From: an archaeon
Lineage (GTDB): Archaea; Thermoproteota; Nitrososphaeria; Nitrososphaerales; CADDZS01
Assembly (NCBI GenBank): GCA_021806865.1
Contig: JAKAPU010000066.1
Location: 1-12,663 of the forward strand
DNA length: 12,663 nt
Reading direction: 5' to 3'
Made by a program: the position numbers and the translations under genes. The notes beneath the pieces are model-generated. The model was not told the origin of the DNA, ran no database searches, and worked only from the letters and a program-made list of their open reading frames with translations. Positions 6,000-11,511 of the stretch are shown here, piece by piece; position 1 is the stretch's first letter, and the number at the start of each line of letters is the position of its first letter.

Positions 6000-6239
6000 A
6001 TGGCTTGGGATGACCTAGTGGTCTGGGTTCTCATAATAGCAGTGGTAGTATTCCTGTTCGTAGCCAACAAGATTCCAGAGATTGCAAAAGGACTGGGACA
6101 GGCGAGGAAAGAGTTCGAACAAGCGTCGAAGGGGCTAACAAATCCGGCGAACGCGGGCAATCCTCAGACAAACCAATTCTTGGCTTCAGGCAATTCCGCC
6201 TCGACTGCACGGCAGGAGAAGGGCCCTGCTAGTGTTTGA
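6000..6239 (+). CDS. tatA: Twin-arginine translocase subunit TatA/E
   Basis: A 79-residue protein with the TatA plan: a very short N-terminus (MAWDD), one membrane helix (about residues 6-23, VVWVLIIAVVVFLFVA), then the amphipathic helix NKIPEIAKGLGQARKEFEQ and a flexible polar tail. The hinge is ANKIPE rather than the common FGPKKLPE; the phenylalanine-glycine pair is absent, as in some archaeal TatA proteins. It oligomerises with TatC to pass folded proteins, often Fe-S or Mo cofactor enzymes, across the membrane. No tatC is in the window, so TatA is encoded apart from it. Its transcript would run toward the insertion element 90 bases downstream; the element end contains a UUCGG-loop hairpin that might terminate it. 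Family call is firm; TatA versus TatB is less so. Confidence 0.85.
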   Translation: MAWDDLVVWVLIIAVVVFLFVANKIPEIAKGLGQARKEFEQASKGLTNPANAGNPQTNQFLASGNSASTARQEKGPASV

Positions 6240-6320
6240 ATCCACTCATAGTCGCTGCCCAAAATGAAGAAATCGATACGCGTGGAAAGACGCGGGAACA
6301 GATAGCCTCGGAGTTGGCTT

Positions 6321-6328
6321 GGAAACTG
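6321..6328. repeat. Target-site duplication, left copy (GGAAACTG)
   Basis: The exact octamer GGAAACTG abuts the left terminal inverted repeat and recurs directly after the right one at 8798-8805. Eight-base duplications are the rule for the IS6 family. Confidence 0.9.
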
Positions 6329-6379
6329 GGTTCTATTTCATCTTCGGGTGATTTGAAAGGGCGTTTCACTTCGGGTGAA
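6329..6379 (+). repeat. Left terminal inverted repeat of the IS
   Basis: It starts GGTTCTATTTC and holds two direct copies of CTTCGGGTGA (6342-6351 and 6369-6378), 27 bases apart. The inner copy forms TTTCAC-TTCGG-GTGAAA (6364-6380), a hairpin with a UUCGG-type loop. The mismatches with the right end cluster at 6352-6356, between the paired copies, suggesting the decamers are what is conserved, probably as transposase-binding sites. Confidence 0.88.
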
Positions 6380-6395
6380 AATTTAGGTTATGATG

Positions 6396-6405
6396 CTTTA
6401 AATAA
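6396..6405 (+). promoter_or_regulatory. TATA box for the first IS passenger ORF (leaderless)
   Basis: CTTTAAATAA is centred about 28 bases before the ATG at 6429. It sits just inside the left terminal repeat, so the element carries its own promoter for this ORF. Confidence 0.55.
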
Positions 6406-6428
6406 CTGAATGTCTCGACTTTCTGCTA

Positions 6429-6647
6429 ATGCAATACAAGTTCTTAGCATTTCGATACGGAACAATAAGGATGCCTAAAGTGCAAGAGAATGACTTCACC
6501 GAACTGACACTTCTAAATCAGCTAGCCGCTGGTGATCAAGGAAAGAAATTGGGAAATCTAATCAATGATGGATGGAAAATACAAAACTTGCAAGTGCTAA
6601 AAGAAGGAAAGGGCTATCTTTGGATTCTGCTAATGGGAAAGGAATAG
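6429..6647 (+). CDS. Small DUF4177-like protein carried by the IS
   Basis: A 72-residue protein: MQYKFLAFRYG as the first strand, a helix, then NLINDGWKIQNLQVLKEGKGYLWILLMGKE. The pattern of short strand, LN...GW and a closing hydrophobic strand resembles DUF4177-type small alpha/beta proteins, whose function is unknown; this is a resemblance by eye. A TATA box at leaderless distance supports expression. Its 3' end overlaps the transposase 3' end by 34 bases on the opposite strand, so the two genes converge and may make overlapping antisense transcripts. A role in modulating transposition is possible but unproven. Confidence 0.6.
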   Translation: MQYKFLAFRYGTIRMPKVQENDFTELTLLNQLAAGDQGKKLGNLINDGWKIQNLQVLKEGKGYLWILLMGKE

Positions 6648-7813
6648 CCATTTCCTACTTTGATCATTGCCTGCTCAAGTAGTTCTAGCCATTTATTCTT
6701 TGAATACAATCCGATTCCCGCACGCTGAGCTGGAGTCATTCCTTCGAGAGCTTCGTGTGGCTTTACGAAGTTATAGTGAATCCTGAATCCTTCAGGAATC
6801 TGTGTCTCCATAGATTTCCATCCACGTTGAACCTTCAATCGTTCTCTGGTCGTGCCGTTAGCTCTCTCGATTCGATTATTGTTCTTATTCGGCAATTTGC
6901 CTAATCCACAATTTGCAACATGAACTCCTTTACCAAAGATTCTAGTTACTGACTGTTTGTACGCCTTCGCTGAATCGGTGAATACCTTCTCTGGTCTGAA
7001 TCCGTGAGCATTTTGCAAAGCAGTACTGAACGCTTGTGCAGCTCCATAATCATCTCTGAATTTAGACAGTTGCGAGGCAAGCATGAATCTTGTTTTTCTA
7101 TCCATTACTTGCCAAAGGTAGGCTATCCTTTTGTTGTTCTTACCGAGATTACCACCTTTCATATGTTGGAATACTTCATCTACGTGCCACATCTCCGAGA
7201 GATTTGTCGGAGCTAACGAATTTACGTACTCGGAAATCTTTGGCACGAATTTCTGAATCCAACGATAGATAGTAATCTTTCCTAATCTCATATCAAATTG
7301 ATTATTCAAAATTCGGGCTGTCTTTGCTAGAGATGTTCCCGAAAAGTAAAGGTCAAGGCATAGAGAGACTGTTTCGGGTGAATACTTTGCTTTCTTCAAA
7401 AGAGAATAGCGAAATTTGTGCTTGCAGTCTTTGCATTTGTAAATCTGCTTTTCAGCGTCATGACCGAATTTCCAAACGCGAATAGAACCGCACTTTTCAC
7501 ACTGAATAGAATCATCTGAGAATACCTTTGGTTTTGGCTTCTGTTCGATTTCTACTTGAGAGGCAATCCAGAACTTTACAGCGTGAATATGCTTGCAGAT
7601 TCCTACTTCTTCATGTCTGTGCTTGAAATCGAGACAATTACAAAGGTATTTTCCGTCAATCAGTCTAACCAAATATGCGATCTCTTCGACCGTCTGAGAG
7701 GGAACGGAGAAAGAACCGTCTCCGTTCTCAAGGATAGTCTTTTCCTTTGCGATCTGTTCGCCTCTCGTCATTCGGCTTAGCGAATTGTTGTCGGTTGAGT
7801 TCTGGTCGCTCAT
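6614..7813 (-). CDS. tnpA: DDE transposase, IS6 type, with SWIM and zinc-ribbon domains
   Basis: A 399-residue transposase. Order: SWIM zinc finger (C58-x-C60 ... C73-x-H75), zinc ribbon (C105-x2-C108 ... C127-x2-C130, about 105-135), helix-turn-helix region (about 145-190, SLAKTARILNNQF), then an RNase H-fold DDE core with D212 (WHVDEVF), D280 (VFTDSAKAY) and E316 (NNRIERANGTTRERLKVQRG), the last two 36 apart as in IS6-family enzymes. The C-terminus HYNFVKPHEALEGMTPAQRAGI is also characteristic. No frameshift or stop, so it should be active. It cuts and joins the ends at 6329 and 8797. Most IS6 transposases are about 230-250 residues; the extra N-terminal SWIM domain accounts for much of the difference and probably adds DNA or protein binding. 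ATG at 7813 has a TATA-like box about 29 bases upstream. Confidence 0.92.
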   Translation of the reverse strand: MSDQNSTDNNSLSRMTRGEQIAKEKTILENGDGSFSVPSQTVEEIAYLVRLIDGKYLCNCLDFKHRHEEVGICKHIHAVKFWIASQVEIEQKPKPKVFSDDSIQCEKCGSIRVWKFGHDAEKQIYKCKDCKHKFRYSLLKKAKYSPETVSLCLDLYFSGTSLAKTARILNNQFDMRLGKITIYRWIQKFVPKISEYVNSLAPTNLSEMWHVDEVFQHMKGGNLGKNNKRIAYLWQVMDRKTRFMLASQLSKFRDDYGAAQAFSTALQNAHGFRPEKVFTDSAKAYKQSVTRIFGKGVHVANCGLGKLPNKNNNRIERANGTTRERLKVQRGWKSMETQIPEGFRIHYNFVKPHEALEGMTPAQRAGIGLYSKNKWLELLEQAMIKVGNGYSFPISRIQR

Positions 7814-7903
7814 AGATGTGTGTATATCAGGGCATGTGTATAAACATATTGCTATAACACAAAGTATATCTATCTGTATGTGTGTATAAGTCCATGACGA
7901 GAA
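7814..7903. promoter_or_regulatory. Divergent promoter/operator region inside the IS
   Basis: Ninety bases separate the transposase (-) from the ribbon-helix-helix gene (+). Minus-strand TATA GTTTATAC (about 7838-7845) fits the transposase; plus-strand AAGTATATCTAT (about 7862-7873) fits the other gene. ATGTGTGTATA occurs identically at 7816-7826 and 7878-7888, with a shorter ATGTGTATA at 7834-7842 overlapping the transposase TATA box. Such direct repeats are typical ribbon-helix-helix operators, so the adjacent gene product probably represses both promoters. Confidence 0.55.
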
Positions 7904-8083
7904 ATGGCTAGGTTACAAATAGTCCTCAAAGACGACACTGAGCAAAGGCTCAGGGAGACTATTTTCAAAACAAAAGGAATGAAAAAAGGGAACATCAGCG
8001 AAGCGATTGAAGAGGCAATAGAATTATGGATTCAGGAACAGATAGAGAAAGAGAAAACACAGAAGGCAAAGAGAGAAAAATGA
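7904..8083 (+). CDS. Ribbon-helix-helix DNA-binding protein (59 residues)
   Basis: It starts MARLQIVLKDDTEQRLRE and continues through GNISEAIEEAIELWIQEQ. An N-terminal strand (RLQIVL) is followed by a helix, a KGN turn and the second helix, the plan of CopG/Arc-like regulators such as those in antitoxins and plasmid copy control; a lysine/glutamate-rich tail ends the protein. Such proteins bind as dimers to short direct or inverted repeats, and suitable repeats lie immediately upstream. The stop overlaps the next start as ATGA (8080-8083), so the genes are translationally coupled. An ATG at 7894 is out of frame and gives a five-codon peptide. Likely role: autorepressor and repressor of the transposase; inferred from position. 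Confidence 0.78.
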   Translation: MARLQIVLKDDTEQRLRETIFKTKGMKKGNISEAIEEAIELWIQEQIEKEKTQKAKREK

Positions 8084-8532
8084 GTATTCCTTTGCTGACA
8101 GAACTTGAAAATATCTGCAAAACAAGAATCAAGATCAATGAAGACGATCGAACACAGCTCATGAAGGATAAGGAAGAATTTGCCGAAAAAGCTCAGGGTG
8201 TTGCAGATTATGCTCATAGACAGAAAGGAGATCGTGAAATACTTTGGTTATGTGATGCCGACTTGTTCTATCTAAGATCAGCACTGGCTCTCCTAGTTGT
8301 AGACCTTCTTGATGAAATAAATCGAGTATGGAAAACACAAAAACTAATGTTGCTAGCATTCAAACAAGAACTTTCAGACCTGAATGAAGAGTCAAAGGAA
8401 GAGCTTTTTTCCAAAATCCAAGAGCTAGAAACGAAATACGATGTCAGCCATAATGGAATACTGACATATCTGGAACAGGTCAAGAAGAACAACATCTGGT
8501 TTCAAGAACCACTTGGAGATGGGAAACAATGA
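8080..8532 (+). CDS. Unrecognised helical IS passenger protein (150 residues)
   Basis: It starts MSIPLLTELENICKTR at the ATG overlapping the upstream stop. The frame stays open upstream to 8026, but that part is the shifted reading of the ribbon-helix-helix tail. The protein is predicted almost wholly helical, charged, with heptad-like runs near 45-110 and no cysteine or catalytic motif that I recognise. It has no membrane segment or signal peptide; the run FYLRSALALLVVDLLDEI is probably a buried helix. The next gene starts within its stop (ATGA at 8529-8532), giving a three-gene coupled unit. Function unknown; an accessory protein of transposition or a partner of the following helical protein are both possible. 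Confidence 0.7.
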   Translation: MSIPLLTELENICKTRIKINEDDRTQLMKDKEEFAEKAQGVADYAHRQKGDREILWLCDADLFYLRSALALLVVDLLDEINRVWKTQKLMLLAFKQELSDLNEESKEELFSKIQELETKYDVSHNGILTYLEQVKKNNIWFQEPLGDGKQ

Positions 8533-9104
8533 GCTATCATCAGAAGCTAGCACAGATCGAAGAAATGCGAAATGCCGTCATGCTCACGGATTTGAATATT
8601 CAGCTTACCGACTTGCTTCACTCACACTTAGAAATGGTCATACTTCAATGCAAAAATCTTGGAATAGCATTTCCCAATTTAGACAGAACTATTGATCTGA
8701 TGAAAAAGGAACAAGCTTTGGTCAATAAGATACTCTCTATTACGCCTTCACCCGAAGCGAAACGCTCTTCTTTTTCACCCGAAGACGAAACAGAACCGGA
8801 AACTGAAAAGCCACTAGAGTGCGGGCAAATGAACTTTCAATTTGAAAGATCGCGAAGGATTCCTTTCTTTTCTAGGCTTCAAATGCGTCTAGGAGGGAGA
8901 GCTTGCTACCGCGTAGCCGGCAGTGACGGCGAGAGCATCCAACTTTTGTTAATAGTTCTGTCAACAGAGTTTTTTCAACCCTCTAGGCAGGCTACGAAGA
9001 ACGCCTGCGACTGCTTGAACCTCGTCTTATGCCGCAACAGTTGGGGGTTGCAGAGAAACAACATCCCCTGGCCGAACATCGAGTCACTAGTCTGCGTCGA
9101 TTGA
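8529..9104 (+). CDS. Helical IS passenger protein whose frame runs out of the element
   Basis: It starts MSYHQKLAQIEEMRNAV at an ATGA overlap. Residues 1 to about 72 are helical and mostly polar. Codons from about 8747 to 8797 are the right terminal repeat (PSPEAKRSSFSPEDETEP), where residue 89 ends. No stop occurs in the element, so the remaining 102 residues, starting ETEKPLECGQ, come from the flanking DNA and look like chance coding. The functional protein is probably only the first 75-90 residues, with a tail that would differ at each insertion site. Function unknown; it is likely a partner of the preceding product. Confidence 0.5.
   Translation: MSYHQKLAQIEEMRNAVMLTDLNIQLTDLLHSHLEMVILQCKNLGIAFPNLDRTIDLMKKEQALVNKILSITPSPEAKRSSFSPEDETEPETEKPLECGQMNFQFERSRRIPFFSRLQMRLGGRACYRVAGSDGESIQLLLIVLSTEFFQPSRQATKNACDCLNLVLCRNSWGLQRNNIPWPNIESLVCVD
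8747..8797 (-). repeat. Right terminal inverted repeat of the IS
   Basis: Read on the minus strand it starts GGTTCTGTTTC and has CTTCGGGTGA at 8775-8784 and 8748-8757, the same spacing as on the left. It lies inside the reading frame of the last passenger gene, where it encodes about 17 residues. Confidence 0.88.
8798..8805. repeat. Target-site duplication, right copy (GGAAACTG)
   Basis: This is identical to 6321-6328 and in the same orientation. Removing 6329-8797 plus one copy restores a continuous presumed pre-insertion sequence lying about 80 bases past tatA. Confidence 0.9.
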
Positions 9105-9211
9105 CAATACAACTGCACTAAAACTGCACTGCTCAAGACTGCACCATGGCATCTACATGCCGTTGTTTTATGTACCTCTACACACTTGTTATCCATTTTT
9201 CTACTTCTAAT
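8806..9211. other. Flanking DNA right of the IS, no independent gene seen
   Basis: About 400 bases contain only the accidental tail of the passenger frame. Small structures: GCTAC-CGC-GTAGC near 8907-8919, followed at once by GCCG-GCAGTGA-CGGC, and GGGGGTTG paired with CAACATCCCC across a CAGAGAAA loop (about 9043-9067). These might be RNA hairpins or remnants of an older element. I could not fit a tRNA on either strand. Confidence 0.45.
9112..9145 (+). repeat. Left arm of a second inverted-repeat pair (ACTGCAC units)
   Basis: It contains three ACTGCAC units. Block A, ACTGCACTAAAACTGC (9112-9127), matches the reverse complement of 10044-10059 at 14 of 16 bases; block B (9128-9145) matches that of 10009-10027 at 16 of 18 with one gap. 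The arms bracket one gene of about 650 bases. ATTGAC just outside (9100-9105) pairs with ATTGAT outside the right arm. Confidence 0.6.
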
Positions 9212-9856
9212 TTAATCATCATTATTTTCTTCTTCTGCGGAATCTTCTTCCGCATCCTGCTCGCTCCGCCATCTTTCAACCCTGACTCCATCATCGTTGT
9301 ACAGCCATCCGTCACTGCCTCTGTTCAACTCCTCGTAGACTGGTTCGCCGTCCTGATCAAACAACCTGCCCCACTCGCCGTGCTCCCTGTGGTAGCCCCT
9401 GTCCTCTTCAATTTGCGCAATATCTTTTCCGCTGTCATATCCATGATCCGATTGACGCCTCGCTTGTTCCCGTCTTTCCCTCACATCATTATTCCACGCC
9501 TCACCAAATTGAATCCCTTTTTCTATTGCGTGCTTGTAGAGCTGCATCTTTCTCGGAAACTTCGAGTATGGATACGTCCTTGTTTCAGTCAGCACATTAG
9601 CCATGACTACAATCTCTTTGTCGCTCAACTTTGCCGTAATCTTCGTTCTCCGTTCGTATTTCTTGAACTGTGCGATGACAACCCTTCTGTGGAGCAATAT
9701 CAGATGATTGAACACCAGAGCCTTCTCTTTTGAATTGACTCCAGTTATTGCAAGGGCTCTCAGTGCATTCCTGATGTCAAAATCGCTCATCCTGATCCTG
9801 TGCTCGCAGCTCACGTAGAATCTGTTTGTAGGTATTCCGAATCTATCACCATCCAT
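9212..9856 (-). CDS. Unrecognised protein with acidic C-terminal tail (214 residues)
   Basis: I do not recognise a family. From ATG 9856 it starts MDGDRFGIPTNRFYVSCEHR; a TTG at 9865 would add three residues but directly follows a stop. The N-terminal half (about 20-115) is helical and basic, with KKYERRTKITAKLSDKEIVVMANVL, which could be nucleic-acid binding. The middle is arginine/glutamate-rich (RERREQARRQ), then aspartate/glycine-rich repeats (LFDQDGEPVYEE, WLYNDDGVRVERW) and a strongly acidic end (DAEEDSAEEENNDD). The acidic tail could be a DNA mimic or halotolerance feature. A TATA-like AAATTTT about 25 bases before the ATG suggests a leaderless transcript. The gene lies alone between two inverted-repeat arms, so it may belong to a small mobile or integrated unit; it has no DDE, tyrosine or HUH motif that I can see. 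Confidence 0.6.
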   Translation of the reverse strand: MDGDRFGIPTNRFYVSCEHRIRMSDFDIRNALRALAITGVNSKEKALVFNHLILLHRRVVIAQFKKYERRTKITAKLSDKEIVVMANVLTETRTYPYSKFPRKMQLYKHAIEKGIQFGEAWNNDVRERREQARRQSDHGYDSGKDIAQIEEDRGYHREHGEWGRLFDQDGEPVYEELNRGSDGWLYNDDGVRVERWRSEQDAEEDSAEEENNDD

Positions 9857-9874
9857 TTCTATCAATCAACCATC

Positions 9875-9970
9875 ATCAAAATTTGATTCATCGATCAACA
9901 GCTCCATGCAATGCAACGTACTTCGATAGACAACAAACAACAGTTTGATTGCATTGATTGATCGATCCAT
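9875..9970. promoter_or_regulatory. Promoter with TTGATTGAT/ATCAATCA repeats
   Basis: The 13-base palindrome ATCAAAATTTGAT (9875-9887) contains the likely TATA box for the gene at 9212-9856. Around it are repeated ATCAATCAA (9861-9869), ATCGATCAA (9890-9898) and the inverted TTGATTGATCGAT (9954-9966). The clustering points to an operator or to an iteron-like region. Confidence 0.4.
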
Positions 9971-10008
9971 TGTTGGTAGCTCGCTATTGGCAGGAAAGGG
10001 AGGCGCCG

Positions 10009-10059
10009 GGTGTAGTTTTGGAGCAGTCCGTGAGATTGCGTGCGCAGTTTTTGTGTAGT
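10009..10059 (-). repeat. Right arm of the second inverted-repeat pair
   Basis: Block B (10009-10027) and block A (10044-10059) are inverted relative to the left arm and separated by 16 extra bases. The arm ends 12 bases before the stop codon of the membrane-nuclease gene. I found no flanking target duplication. Confidence 0.6.
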
Positions 10060-10071
10060 CATCAATTTAGC

Positions 10072-11325
10072 TCACGCTTTACCTCCGAGCTGTCTCAAAA
10101 GCCTCCGAAACATCTCCTTCAGCTCATTCCCTGATTCAGGGTCTTTCTTCGAGAGCATCACAGGTGTCGAGACTCCTTTCCAGTTGGTTAGTTGATCAAA
10201 CGGAATCAGGCAAAGCCATTTCCGACCATTGCTCCTATTCTTGACTGCAATGACCACTGACACCTTGTGCTTCTGGGAGGCAACCGTTTCAGGAATGATA
10301 TCTTCGGGAGAGATGCGACGCTGGTTTCTCTTCGGCTCGTCGTAGAGCATGTACGACTTTGCGTTGACTACTGCAACTATCCTAGATACATCGGATGACG
10401 AAAGAGTGATGTCAGGATCTCCCTGAGCCTTCCTCCTCTCCACACCAAAGCCTGCGTCCCGAAACATCGACGCGAACTCCTCCTCCGTCTTCTCGCCAAT
10501 GTCCCGGCTGGCCCTTCCGTCATCTCTTGTTAGAGTCGTCAGCTGTGATTGCGTGGACAAGTTTCCCTCGCGGGCTGAGAGCACCTTCTCCCGCCGATCG
10601 AGATCACTTTCCCTCTCCACCTGAAACTGCTTCAACTTGTCATAGATCTCGATCCTGTTTGCAAGGTCTTCCTGCAACCTTTTCATCGACTCGATATCTT
10701 TGTGGTACTCGTCCAGTAGAGTCCTGAAACTCTTCTGAAACGAGTTGTATCCGTTGACCATGATGCCGTAGTTTCTGGCATCCTCAGCATATCTCGCGAA
10801 GAGCTCGTCCATCTTGCTTGAGATCTCCTTGTTCTGAACTTCGATCTGCTTCACCTTGGAGTTGAAGGCGTCGGTGATGTCCTTCTTGAACTGGTCGATT
10901 TCGGATCTCAGCAGAGATGTCTGTCTGCCGATGTTGGAGTTGAAGCTGTCAAGTAAAGGCAGGAAATGACCCTTGACCTCTTCAGATATCAAATCCAAGC
11001 CATTGCTTATCCTGATTCCATCCTCCCTCCCAACCCACTCGCCGAATGAGACAAGCAGCCACGAGACGCAAACCGAGGCAACGCCGAATCCAAGCATCAT
11101 CTGAGCGTACTTTGCTCCTACCACGTCTAGAGATTCCGCGAGCTCGTTGAACAGTATCATGGACGGGTAGACGCCGACGAGAACAGATCCTACCTTAGCC
11201 ACAAGTGAAAGCGAGCGCTCAGATATTCTGAGCCTTAGGGCGCCACCAGCTATTGGGGCGAGGAGCATGGCCAAGGGTAGGAATATCTCTGGCGGAACCT
11301 GCAAGGTGAGTGGCGACATTTCCAT
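10072..11325 (-). CDS. Membrane-anchored coiled-coil protein with PD-(D/E)XK-like nuclease domain
   Basis: A 417-residue protein. Three hydrophobic segments (about 14-30, 42-60, 75-93) are followed by a long helical/coiled-coil stalk (about 130-255; RLQEDLANRIEIYDKLKQFQVERESDLDRREKVL). The C-terminal alpha/beta domain begins DIGEKTEEEFASMFRDAGFGVERRKAQGDPDITL. The helix glutamates E281-E283, GDPDI (D303/D305) and VVNAKSY (N321-x-K323) line up with the PD-(D/E)XK active site, except that the usual Glu/Asp of motif III is Asn. Order and topology recall RmuC (membrane anchor, coiled coil, nuclease fold), though sequence identity is not evident. It may cut or bind DNA at the membrane; activity is uncertain because of the N for D/E change. 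Its ATG directly follows the stop of the 61-residue gene, with GGAGGCGAT as Shine-Dalgarno sequence. Defence, recombination or element maintenance are candidate roles. Confidence 0.65.
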   Translation of the reverse strand: MEMSPLTLQVPPEIFLPLAMLLAPIAGGALRLRISERSLSLVAKVGSVLVGVYPSMILFNELAESLDVVGAKYAQMMLGFGVASVCVSWLLVSFGEWVGREDGIRISNGLDLISEEVKGHFLPLLDSFNSNIGRQTSLLRSEIDQFKKDITDAFNSKVKQIEVQNKEISSKMDELFARYAEDARNYGIMVNGYNSFQKSFRTLLDEYHKDIESMKRLQEDLANRIEIYDKLKQFQVERESDLDRREKVLSAREGNLSTQSQLTTLTRDDGRASRDIGEKTEEEFASMFRDAGFGVERRKAQGDPDITLSSSDVSRIVAVVNAKSYMLYDEPKRNQRRISPEDIIPETVASQKHKVSVVIAVKNRSNGRKWLCLIPFDQLTNWKGVSTPVMLSKKDPESGNELKEMFRRLLRQLGGKA

Positions 11326-11511
11326 CTAATCGCCTCCATCGTTGTCAGCTGCATCCAGGCTCAGGAGCGCTTTCCTGACTTTTGTTTGATACTCTTGTAG
11401 ATCCAACTTGAACTCACGGATCTCTCTGCCAAGCTCGTTCAATTTCTTGCGAATCATTGCATCCAGTAGCGACGCATCAGCGACTTCCACCGTAGCAGCA
11501 TTATTCGCCAT
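11326..11511 (-). CDS. Small coiled-coil protein coupled to the membrane nuclease
   Basis: A 61-residue, almost wholly helical protein (MANNAATVEVADASLLDAMIRKK, then LNELGREIREFKLDLQEYQTKVRKALLSL). Leucine and isoleucine spacing from residue 15 to 52 fits a coiled coil. Its TAG stop directly abuts the ATG of the nuclease gene, and its last codons hold the Shine-Dalgarno sequence GGAGGCGAT for it, so expression is coupled. It probably pairs with the coiled-coil stalk of the partner as a regulator or assembly factor. No DNA-binding motif is obvious. It resembles antitoxins only in size and placement. Confidence 0.6.
   Translation of the reverse strand: MANNAATVEVADASLLDAMIRKKLNELGREIREFKLDLQEYQTKVRKALLSLDAADNDGGD

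Follow-up and report, generated by a model that had tools for sequence, protein, structure and literature searches.

The window analyzed here, the 12,663-nucleotide archaeal contig JAKAPU010000066.1, appears to hold a complete, inserted cargo transposon with an IS6-related DDE transposase, most probably from a soil-dwelling member of the Nitrososphaeria, that belongs to a wider family, a reading to which we give a probability of about 0.9. Architecture and mobility are both visible at the level of comparative genomics. The element spans positions 6329-8797 (2,469 bp), is bounded on both sides by inverted repeats and a target duplication, and interrupts a host gene whose protein is TatA-like.

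6000-6328, plus strand: tatA-like host gene into which the element is inserted; the final codons and the stop follow at 8806-8817
6321-6328: left 8-bp target duplication, GGAAACTG (sequence and empty-site comparison)
6329-6379, plus strand: terminal inverted repeat on the transposase 3' side, tip GGTTCTATTTCATCTTCGGGTG (sequence)
8747-8797, minus strand: terminal inverted repeat on the cargo side, tip GGTTCTGTTTCGTCTTCGGGTG (sequence)
8798-8805: right 8-bp target duplication, GGAAACTG (sequence and empty-site comparison)

As a preliminary description of this DNA had proposed, the 8-bp duplication is exact at both ends, and the repeats form an ungapped inverted match of 42 of 51 positions. When the whole window was shuffled by dinucleotides (n = 8) and arms 500-4000 nt apart were compared, the best 51-nt inverted match reached 30-31; repeat and duplication are far above chance. 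GGGTG or GGGCG iterons stand at +17, +30, and +44 of the repeat on the transposase side and at +17 and +44 of the other, and both tips show the IS6 motif of a GG start and an internal cTGTt (GGTTCTGTT at one end and GGTTCTATT at the other). GC content is 0.40 within the element and 0.50 in the 3-kb flanks.

Relatives with an empty insertion site agree with these boundaries. The element is inserted three codons ahead of the stop of the tatA-like gene. A DNA search of 300 genomes with the upstream flank gave matches in 53, with at least 10 distinct places on the tatA part, and seven of these were fetched. In six (L163, L164, L165, L166, L167, and L169) the gene is readable uninterrupted to its end, and L168 has no readable tatA-like gene in the frame used. 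Joining the window flanks with one copy of the duplication gives a gene ending in ...IASELAWKL|KSH*, for which the L164 counterpart is ...IATELAWKLKSS*, and the uninterrupted genes end in KL plus three residues (GNS in L163, KSS in L164, NKK in L165 and L167, SKK in L169) or, in L166, five (NHVAS). Because the six empty-site genes run across the site, the breakpoints are 6329 and 8797, as first proposed, and from the gene ends it follows that removing 6329-8797 with one duplication restores the ancestral end. These relatives are about 71-79% identical to the window in DNA over the matched pieces, which makes this a comparison of orthologues, not of the same strain. As a separate observation, the C-terminal tail of the window's tatA-like gene lies in a different frame from its N-terminal part, whereas in five relatives, translated from their start codons, the two parts share one frame; the frame change is either gene decay or an assembly error.

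Within the ends lie the following genes and open reading frames (ORFs), with lengths in amino acids (aa).

6429-6647, plus strand: possible ORF of 72 aa that converges on the transposase and overlaps its 3' end (open frame only)
6614-7813, minus strand: transposase, 399 aa (ORF; Pfam, NCBIfam, and alignment)
7904-8083, plus strand: ribbon-helix-helix (RHH) gene, 59 aa, divergent from the transposase (PF16762)
8092-8532, plus strand: orphan passenger, 146 aa (ORF; predicted all-helical, low confidence)
8529-8797, plus strand: second passenger ORF, with an ATGA overlap with the first (ORF only)

The transposase carries the Pfam IS240/IS6 DDE domain PF13610 (55.8 bits, cutoff 27) and passes the NCBIfam IS1/IS1595-type zinc-binding model; its zinc-ribbon and SWIM Pfam matches are both below cutoff. 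In an alignment of 28 sequences D212, D280, E316, and R323 are invariant, and their position suggests that they are the catalytic residues. IS6 is the best NCBIfam model in all four transposases scanned (97.5-115.9 bits, all below cutoff). IS1 is second-best in three of the four, including the window's (72.1 bits against a cutoff of 100), and the zinc-binding N-terminal domain is a further likeness to it, but IS1 scores below IS6 in all four. Close relatives of the window transposase (P0002 and P0005) are labelled as coming from Rhabdochlamydiaceae metagenome-assembled genomes (MAGs), by misbinning or through transfer.

The RHH gene matches PF16762 at 27.9 bits (cutoff 27). When 5.8 billion proteins were searched by a word-based method, the 146-aa passenger matched only itself, and its single-sequence model is all helical with a mean pLDDT of 61, too weak for a fold search. 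The second passenger ORF, which starts at 8529, has no stop within the element. Its frame stays open across both repeat and duplication as far as 9104, and the element therefore does not determine where it ends. The 72-aa ORF had no Pfam match at E ≤ 1 and is not matched by a similarly placed small gene in L113. Where a transposase plus four other genes had been described, the transposase, the RHH gene, and the 146-aa ORF stand, while the fourth ORF has no stop inside and the 72-aa ORF is unsupported; the two coupled helical proteins reported there come down to a first that is predicted to be helical with low confidence and a second that leaves the element.

The transposase alignment led to 43 loci in genome contigs, nearly all under Nitrososphaeria or Thaumarchaeota names, with some called only archaeon or bacterium and one Thermoplasmata. 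Among 400 genomes of the order of one relative, 95 contain a transposase match at E ≤ 1e-60, and 40 stretches were fetched from this list, taking the strongest matches not already in the set and then a sample of weaker ones. The census of ends covered 80 stretches of transposase sequence, each 300 nt or longer, with duplicates, fragments, and contig-end cases included. A perfect 8/8 duplication combined with a tip match of at least 14, 15, or 16 of 20 occurred in 34, 29, and 24 of the 80 stretches, compared to 1, 0, and 0 in each of two mock-complement controls. A looser scan (13/20 tip, 7/8 duplication) matched 61 of the 80, with the control matching too, and was not used.

We retained 27 distinct elements of 2,093-4,487 bp with paired ends and perfect 8-bp duplications, namely the window's and 26 relatives from Nitrososphaeria MAGs and genomes of their order. 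L105 and L112 were dropped because they duplicate L010 and L014, and L007, L014, L095, and L107 because their tips were judged chance or doubtful; two L018 fragments were merged, and L120 was retained at 14/20. L101, L104, L119 (13/20), and L200 were used for comparisons only, L200 being an uncounted 28th element of 5,079 bp with a 60/60 repeat and the duplication TGCATTGG. All 27 delimited elements have non-transposase ORFs within their ends, which bears out the placement of passengers inside the repeats, and none of the 27 is a compact version. Genes unrelated to transposition between terminal repeats are what marks a tIS, an insertion sequence with passengers, and these elements qualify as such. 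In one structure, L018:455-2748, a 300-aa ORF for an rve-type transposase divides the IS6-like transposase in two, all within paired ends and a perfect duplication.

Viral contigs gave 83 pattern matches and zero confirmed relatives. Eight loci with kin of the window or L101 end, examined for non-autonomous derivatives, had no IS6-like end pair with duplication, only lone ends and transposase remnants; the tips of one end pair in L198 are unrelated to these, and we regard that pair as a chance match. Lone ends in L192-L197 are 80-88% identical to a window repeat over 39-50 bp, some with transposase remnants, and have no partner end with duplication.

The ends of the family have a structure of their own. 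Tips in the window's branch read GGTTCTGTT-N2-ATCTTCGGG or near it, and the motif GG[GT][TC]G is repeated near +17, +30, and +44. It averages 1.59 per 62-bp end versus 0.08 in inner stretches and occurs at least twice in 29/54 ends versus 11/2,324 inner stretches; several distant members (L056, L122, L126, L127, and L129) lack it at their ends. Compared with themselves at a 27-bp offset, ends have an identity of 0.407 and inner stretches 0.281, a self-match that makes each end look like two tandem copies of one site.

Beside the transposase start, a divergent small ORF of about 44-71 aa is present in 24 of 25 scored elements (the 27 minus L015 and L018, whose transposase 5' part is broken). 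These slot genes comprise 14 RHH-like proteins, seven AbrB-like proteins, and three zinc ribbons, folds that are mutually unrelated. Classes were assigned by eye, and for the RHH-like and AbrB-like genes the assignment was tested with leave-one-out profiles in which 370 further small ORFs of the same elements served as competitors. All 14 RHH-like genes took the top rank of 371, and seven of eight AbrB-like genes (L104 added) ranked second, below an AbrB-like ORF of L131 among the decoys; the AbrB-like assignment of L127, at rank five with E = 2, is doubtful. Among the zinc ribbons, two compared pairs are 53-54% identical. For L004, L056, L127, and L129 an internal start codon was used, and the longest open frame of the transposase and the slot gene overlap in L120 and L129. 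Outside the 27, seven of eight more transposase loci have an RHH-like or AbrB-like divergent gene by eye, the exception being L106. A transposase tree was built from 25 of the 27 elements together with L101 and L104, 27 sequences in all, and regulator class changes 11 times on it compared to a shuffled mean of 11.2; class is therefore not clustered on the tree, and the comparison indicates that the regulator fold has changed along it. A homologous regulator is kept with the transposase in four pairs, L009/L101, L007/L103, L013/L014, and L119/L130. The proposed architecture, an element with passengers and a putative RHH regulator, is supported, as one member of a family and not as a one-off.

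Cargo turnover around this core is also visible by comparison. The pairwise homology set has 32 rows at ≥70% identity, including one self-comparison and some repeated pairs. Homology stops between 89 bp short of the end of the transposase match and 6 bp beyond it, except in L054/L058/L060, where about 200 bp more is shared. Upstream, it stops near or inside the transposase start or, 204-310 bp before that start, in L009/L101, L007/L103, L013/L014, L119/L130, and L054/L060, and L119/L132 have 1,065 bp in common. L119 and L132 have in common a 261-aa cargo gene, an RHH gene, and the transposase (70% over 2,218 bp), their flanks are unrelated, and their perfect duplications differ (TTCATTAT and ATAAAACA), a pattern indicating that the cargo moved together with the core. 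At the level of the family, copies with the same cargo at different sites, which the preliminary description had anticipated, are thereby found.

An apparent swap of cargo on a near-identical core is seen in genome G106. Two of its elements, L101 and L104, share a 1,342-bp block of 90% identity covering regulator and transposase, and one L104 end is 98-100% identical to both L101 ends over 52-55 bp. On both sides of the block the cargo is unrelated, with an NYN-domain gene and a 302-aa unknown in L101 and a weakly winged helix-turn-helix-like gene and two unknowns in L104.

Insertion sites can be shared as well. L123, L124, and L131 represent the same chromosomal place in three genomes, with flanks 82-88% identical and a different element or elements in each, and flank identity ends at the element ends. 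The junctions read ...TTGTTTTAG | element | TGTTTTAG... in L131 and L124 and ...TTGTTTCGA | element ... in L123. From L123:3643-12940 onward, three complete elements in series are followed by the start of a fourth, parted by single copies of the 8-bp target TGTTTCGA. By eye, this site lies a few bases beyond a TATA-like stretch.

These comparisons point to a modular plan of duplicated-site ends, a conserved transposase, a small divergent DNA-binding gene, and variable cargo. For regulation, chemistry, and the roles of cargo, we infer the following scheme. The transposase would bind each end at two tandem sites of about 27 bp and move all DNA between the ends. The small divergent protein, we think somewhat probably, represses transposase expression by binding the 90-bp intergenic region, and it may bind the ends too. 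Cargo would be exchanged via recombination between co-resident elements, such as serial insertions at one site; repeated insertion at a single 8-bp target, as in the four L123 element starts, would supply the substrate. In the window, the cargo would be the orphan 146-aa protein and the product of the read-through ORF, if any. A broader proposal, which we rate slightly below even odds, is that this Nitrososphaeria cargo-transposon family has a fixed kernel that must pair with a regulator of any of at least three unrelated folds, the rest being freely replaced.

Several observations weigh against the cargo-transposon reading. The NCBIfam IS6 model ranks first for the window transposase, yet at 97.5 bits against a cutoff of 125, and 'IS6-related' is therefore safer than 'IS6'; the original IS6-type assignment fits in duplication, tips, DDE-plus-R residues, and PF13610, and does not fit in this cutoff, in size, or in repeat length. 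More than half of the 80 transposase stretches are without acceptable ends, partly at contig ends, and others may be decayed. Most relatives have tips like those of the window element; tips without a GG start were retained in L010, L099, L109, L113, L127, and L123_5989 (one or both ends, one end in the last). Few slot genes exceed Pfam cutoffs (MazE in L099, L102, and L126; RHH_6 in the window), and matches of the remainder are weak or absent. In L131 the slot is without a regulator, the AbrB-like ORF lying elsewhere in the element, yet L123_10454, with transposase DNA 85% identical to that of L131, does have a regulator there. It is from position and co-inheritance that the small gene is proposed as a regulator of transposition. 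In G106, the other L104 end is 74% identical to the L101 ends, L104 is without a target duplication, and that of L101 matches at 6/8, a state compatible with past recombination without proving it; G106 may itself be a bin, possibly a mixed one. Finally, no second copy of the window element with the same cargo was found among 5.8 billion proteins or in the 400 genomes, so that the several copies with all passengers that had been predicted for this very element did not appear. DNA kin of the element occur in 42 of the 400 genomes, on the transposase, ends, and RHH gene, with none on the 146-aa passenger among the matches listed. The L102 element likewise had no same-cargo copies in its own and nine other genomes, where matches fall on transposase and ends only.

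The strongest competitor to the proposed repressor, which we nevertheless consider unlikely, is that the RHH or AbrB gene and its coupled neighbor are a toxin-antitoxin cargo that stabilizes the transposon and has no role in transposase control. RHH and AbrB/MazE are classic antitoxin folds; a gene of 90-180 aa closely follows or overlaps the small gene in the window, L005, L008, L124, L102, and L125; and L008 and L123_10454 share RHH gene and partner though their transposases are distant. In L101, the AbrB-like gene is followed about 180 bp on, on the same strand, by the gene for the NYN domain, a nuclease-type fold. However, the small gene stays with the transposase while neighboring DNA changes in the four pairs listed above, the next gene faces it in L099, L126, L121, and L104, and zinc ribbons occupy the same slot. 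Joint inheritance of small gene and partner, the mark of a type II toxin-antitoxin module, is seen in L008/L123_10454 and not in L009/L101 or L007/L103. No toxin family appeared among the 25 of 76 and 25 of 60 families listed, nor, NYN apart, in the domain scan.

Another reading, that most of the small ORFs inside are frames open by chance or remnants of decayed host DNA and the element a long insertion sequence with filler, seems improbable. This reading would account for the unsupported 72-aa and read-through ORFs of the window, and picking ORFs longest-first did lose some real genes and take some antisense frames. The 96 passengers matched 76 Pfam families (E ≤ 0.01), but most of the 25 listed have one member and several fall on the same protein, so many passengers are without a clear match. 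On the other hand, some passengers are found in more than one element, L119 has a conserved counterpart of the 261-aa cargo of L132, and third codon positions are the most divergent in all eight readable pairs of homologous genes (six regulators and two other passengers or partners), weakly in two; the frame used gave no readable alignment for a ninth pair. Other passengers carry recognizable domains, including NYN, a DNA methylase with a weak Mrr-like segment, an aspartyl protease, and a proteasome-like domain. Least credible of all, at odds we consider negligible, is a compact IS6 beside unrelated genes with chance repeats, or a pseudo-compound structure of two insertion sequence copies. According to PMC7986276, IS6 elements usually contain one gene, and pseudo-compound transposons often arise from them. 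Here there is only one transposase, the ends are inverted and not direct, empty-site orthologues agree with the outer breakpoints, and passengers lie inside the ends in 26 relatives, with 0 of 27 elements compact.

Among known systems, the likenesses to IS6/IS26 (clade h, with a zinc finger), as PMC7986276 describes it, are 8-bp duplications, GG tips, the TGTT motif, DDE followed by R at +7, a zinc-finger N-terminal part, and PF13610. The same review gives IS6 a length of 700-1760 bp, essentially a single gene, and repeats of 15-20 bp. In contrast, the family described here runs to 2.1-5.1 kb and has ends of about 50 bp with a duplicated site, passengers, a divergent regulator gene, and the low NCBIfam score; the window element itself, at 2,469 bp with passengers and a 51-bp repeat, lies outside those limits. 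ISDsp3, the single passenger-carrying IS6 member reported in that review, has one hypothetical passenger in one bacterium in one copy (PMC7986276). By that description it likewise joins an IS6-type transposase to another gene, whereas the archaeal family combines more than one passenger with a regulator slot and with cargo exchange. PMC7986276 states that the control of IS6 transposase expression is little understood, and a survey of these archaea reports cargo-carrying elements of such kind as missing. A literature search on IS6, archaea/Thaumarchaeota, and passenger or cargo genes returned no description of such elements in titles and abstract starts among the matches listed, with subscription papers and ISfinder outside its scope.

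Taken together, the delimited ends, the empty and the shared insertion sites, and the turnover of cargo that can be seen in this family amount to a small archaeal gene-shuttling system, and the family makes regulation of an IS6-type transposase testable. Bacterial cargo transposons of the Tn3 type carry a transposase, a regulator, and variable passengers between inverted repeats. They differ in transposase family, and the window element is much smaller and has no recognized resolvase. If the modular, regulator-paired plan is true, the family would be to archaea what passenger transposons are to bacteria.

Among the 25 of 60 families listed, a DNA methylase was the only defense cargo; in L121:2851-4149 one ORF joins a DNA methylase domain to a weak Mrr-like restriction segment. 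Small membrane proteins are, by eye, apparently frequent downstream of the transposase. Immediately right of the window element, a strong GC-skew change spans 9001-11500. A 417-aa protein encoded on the minus strand at 10072-11325 had no Pfam match above cutoff; it begins with a hydrophobic segment, resembles a coiled coil in the middle, and by eye looks nuclease-like in motif toward its C-terminus.

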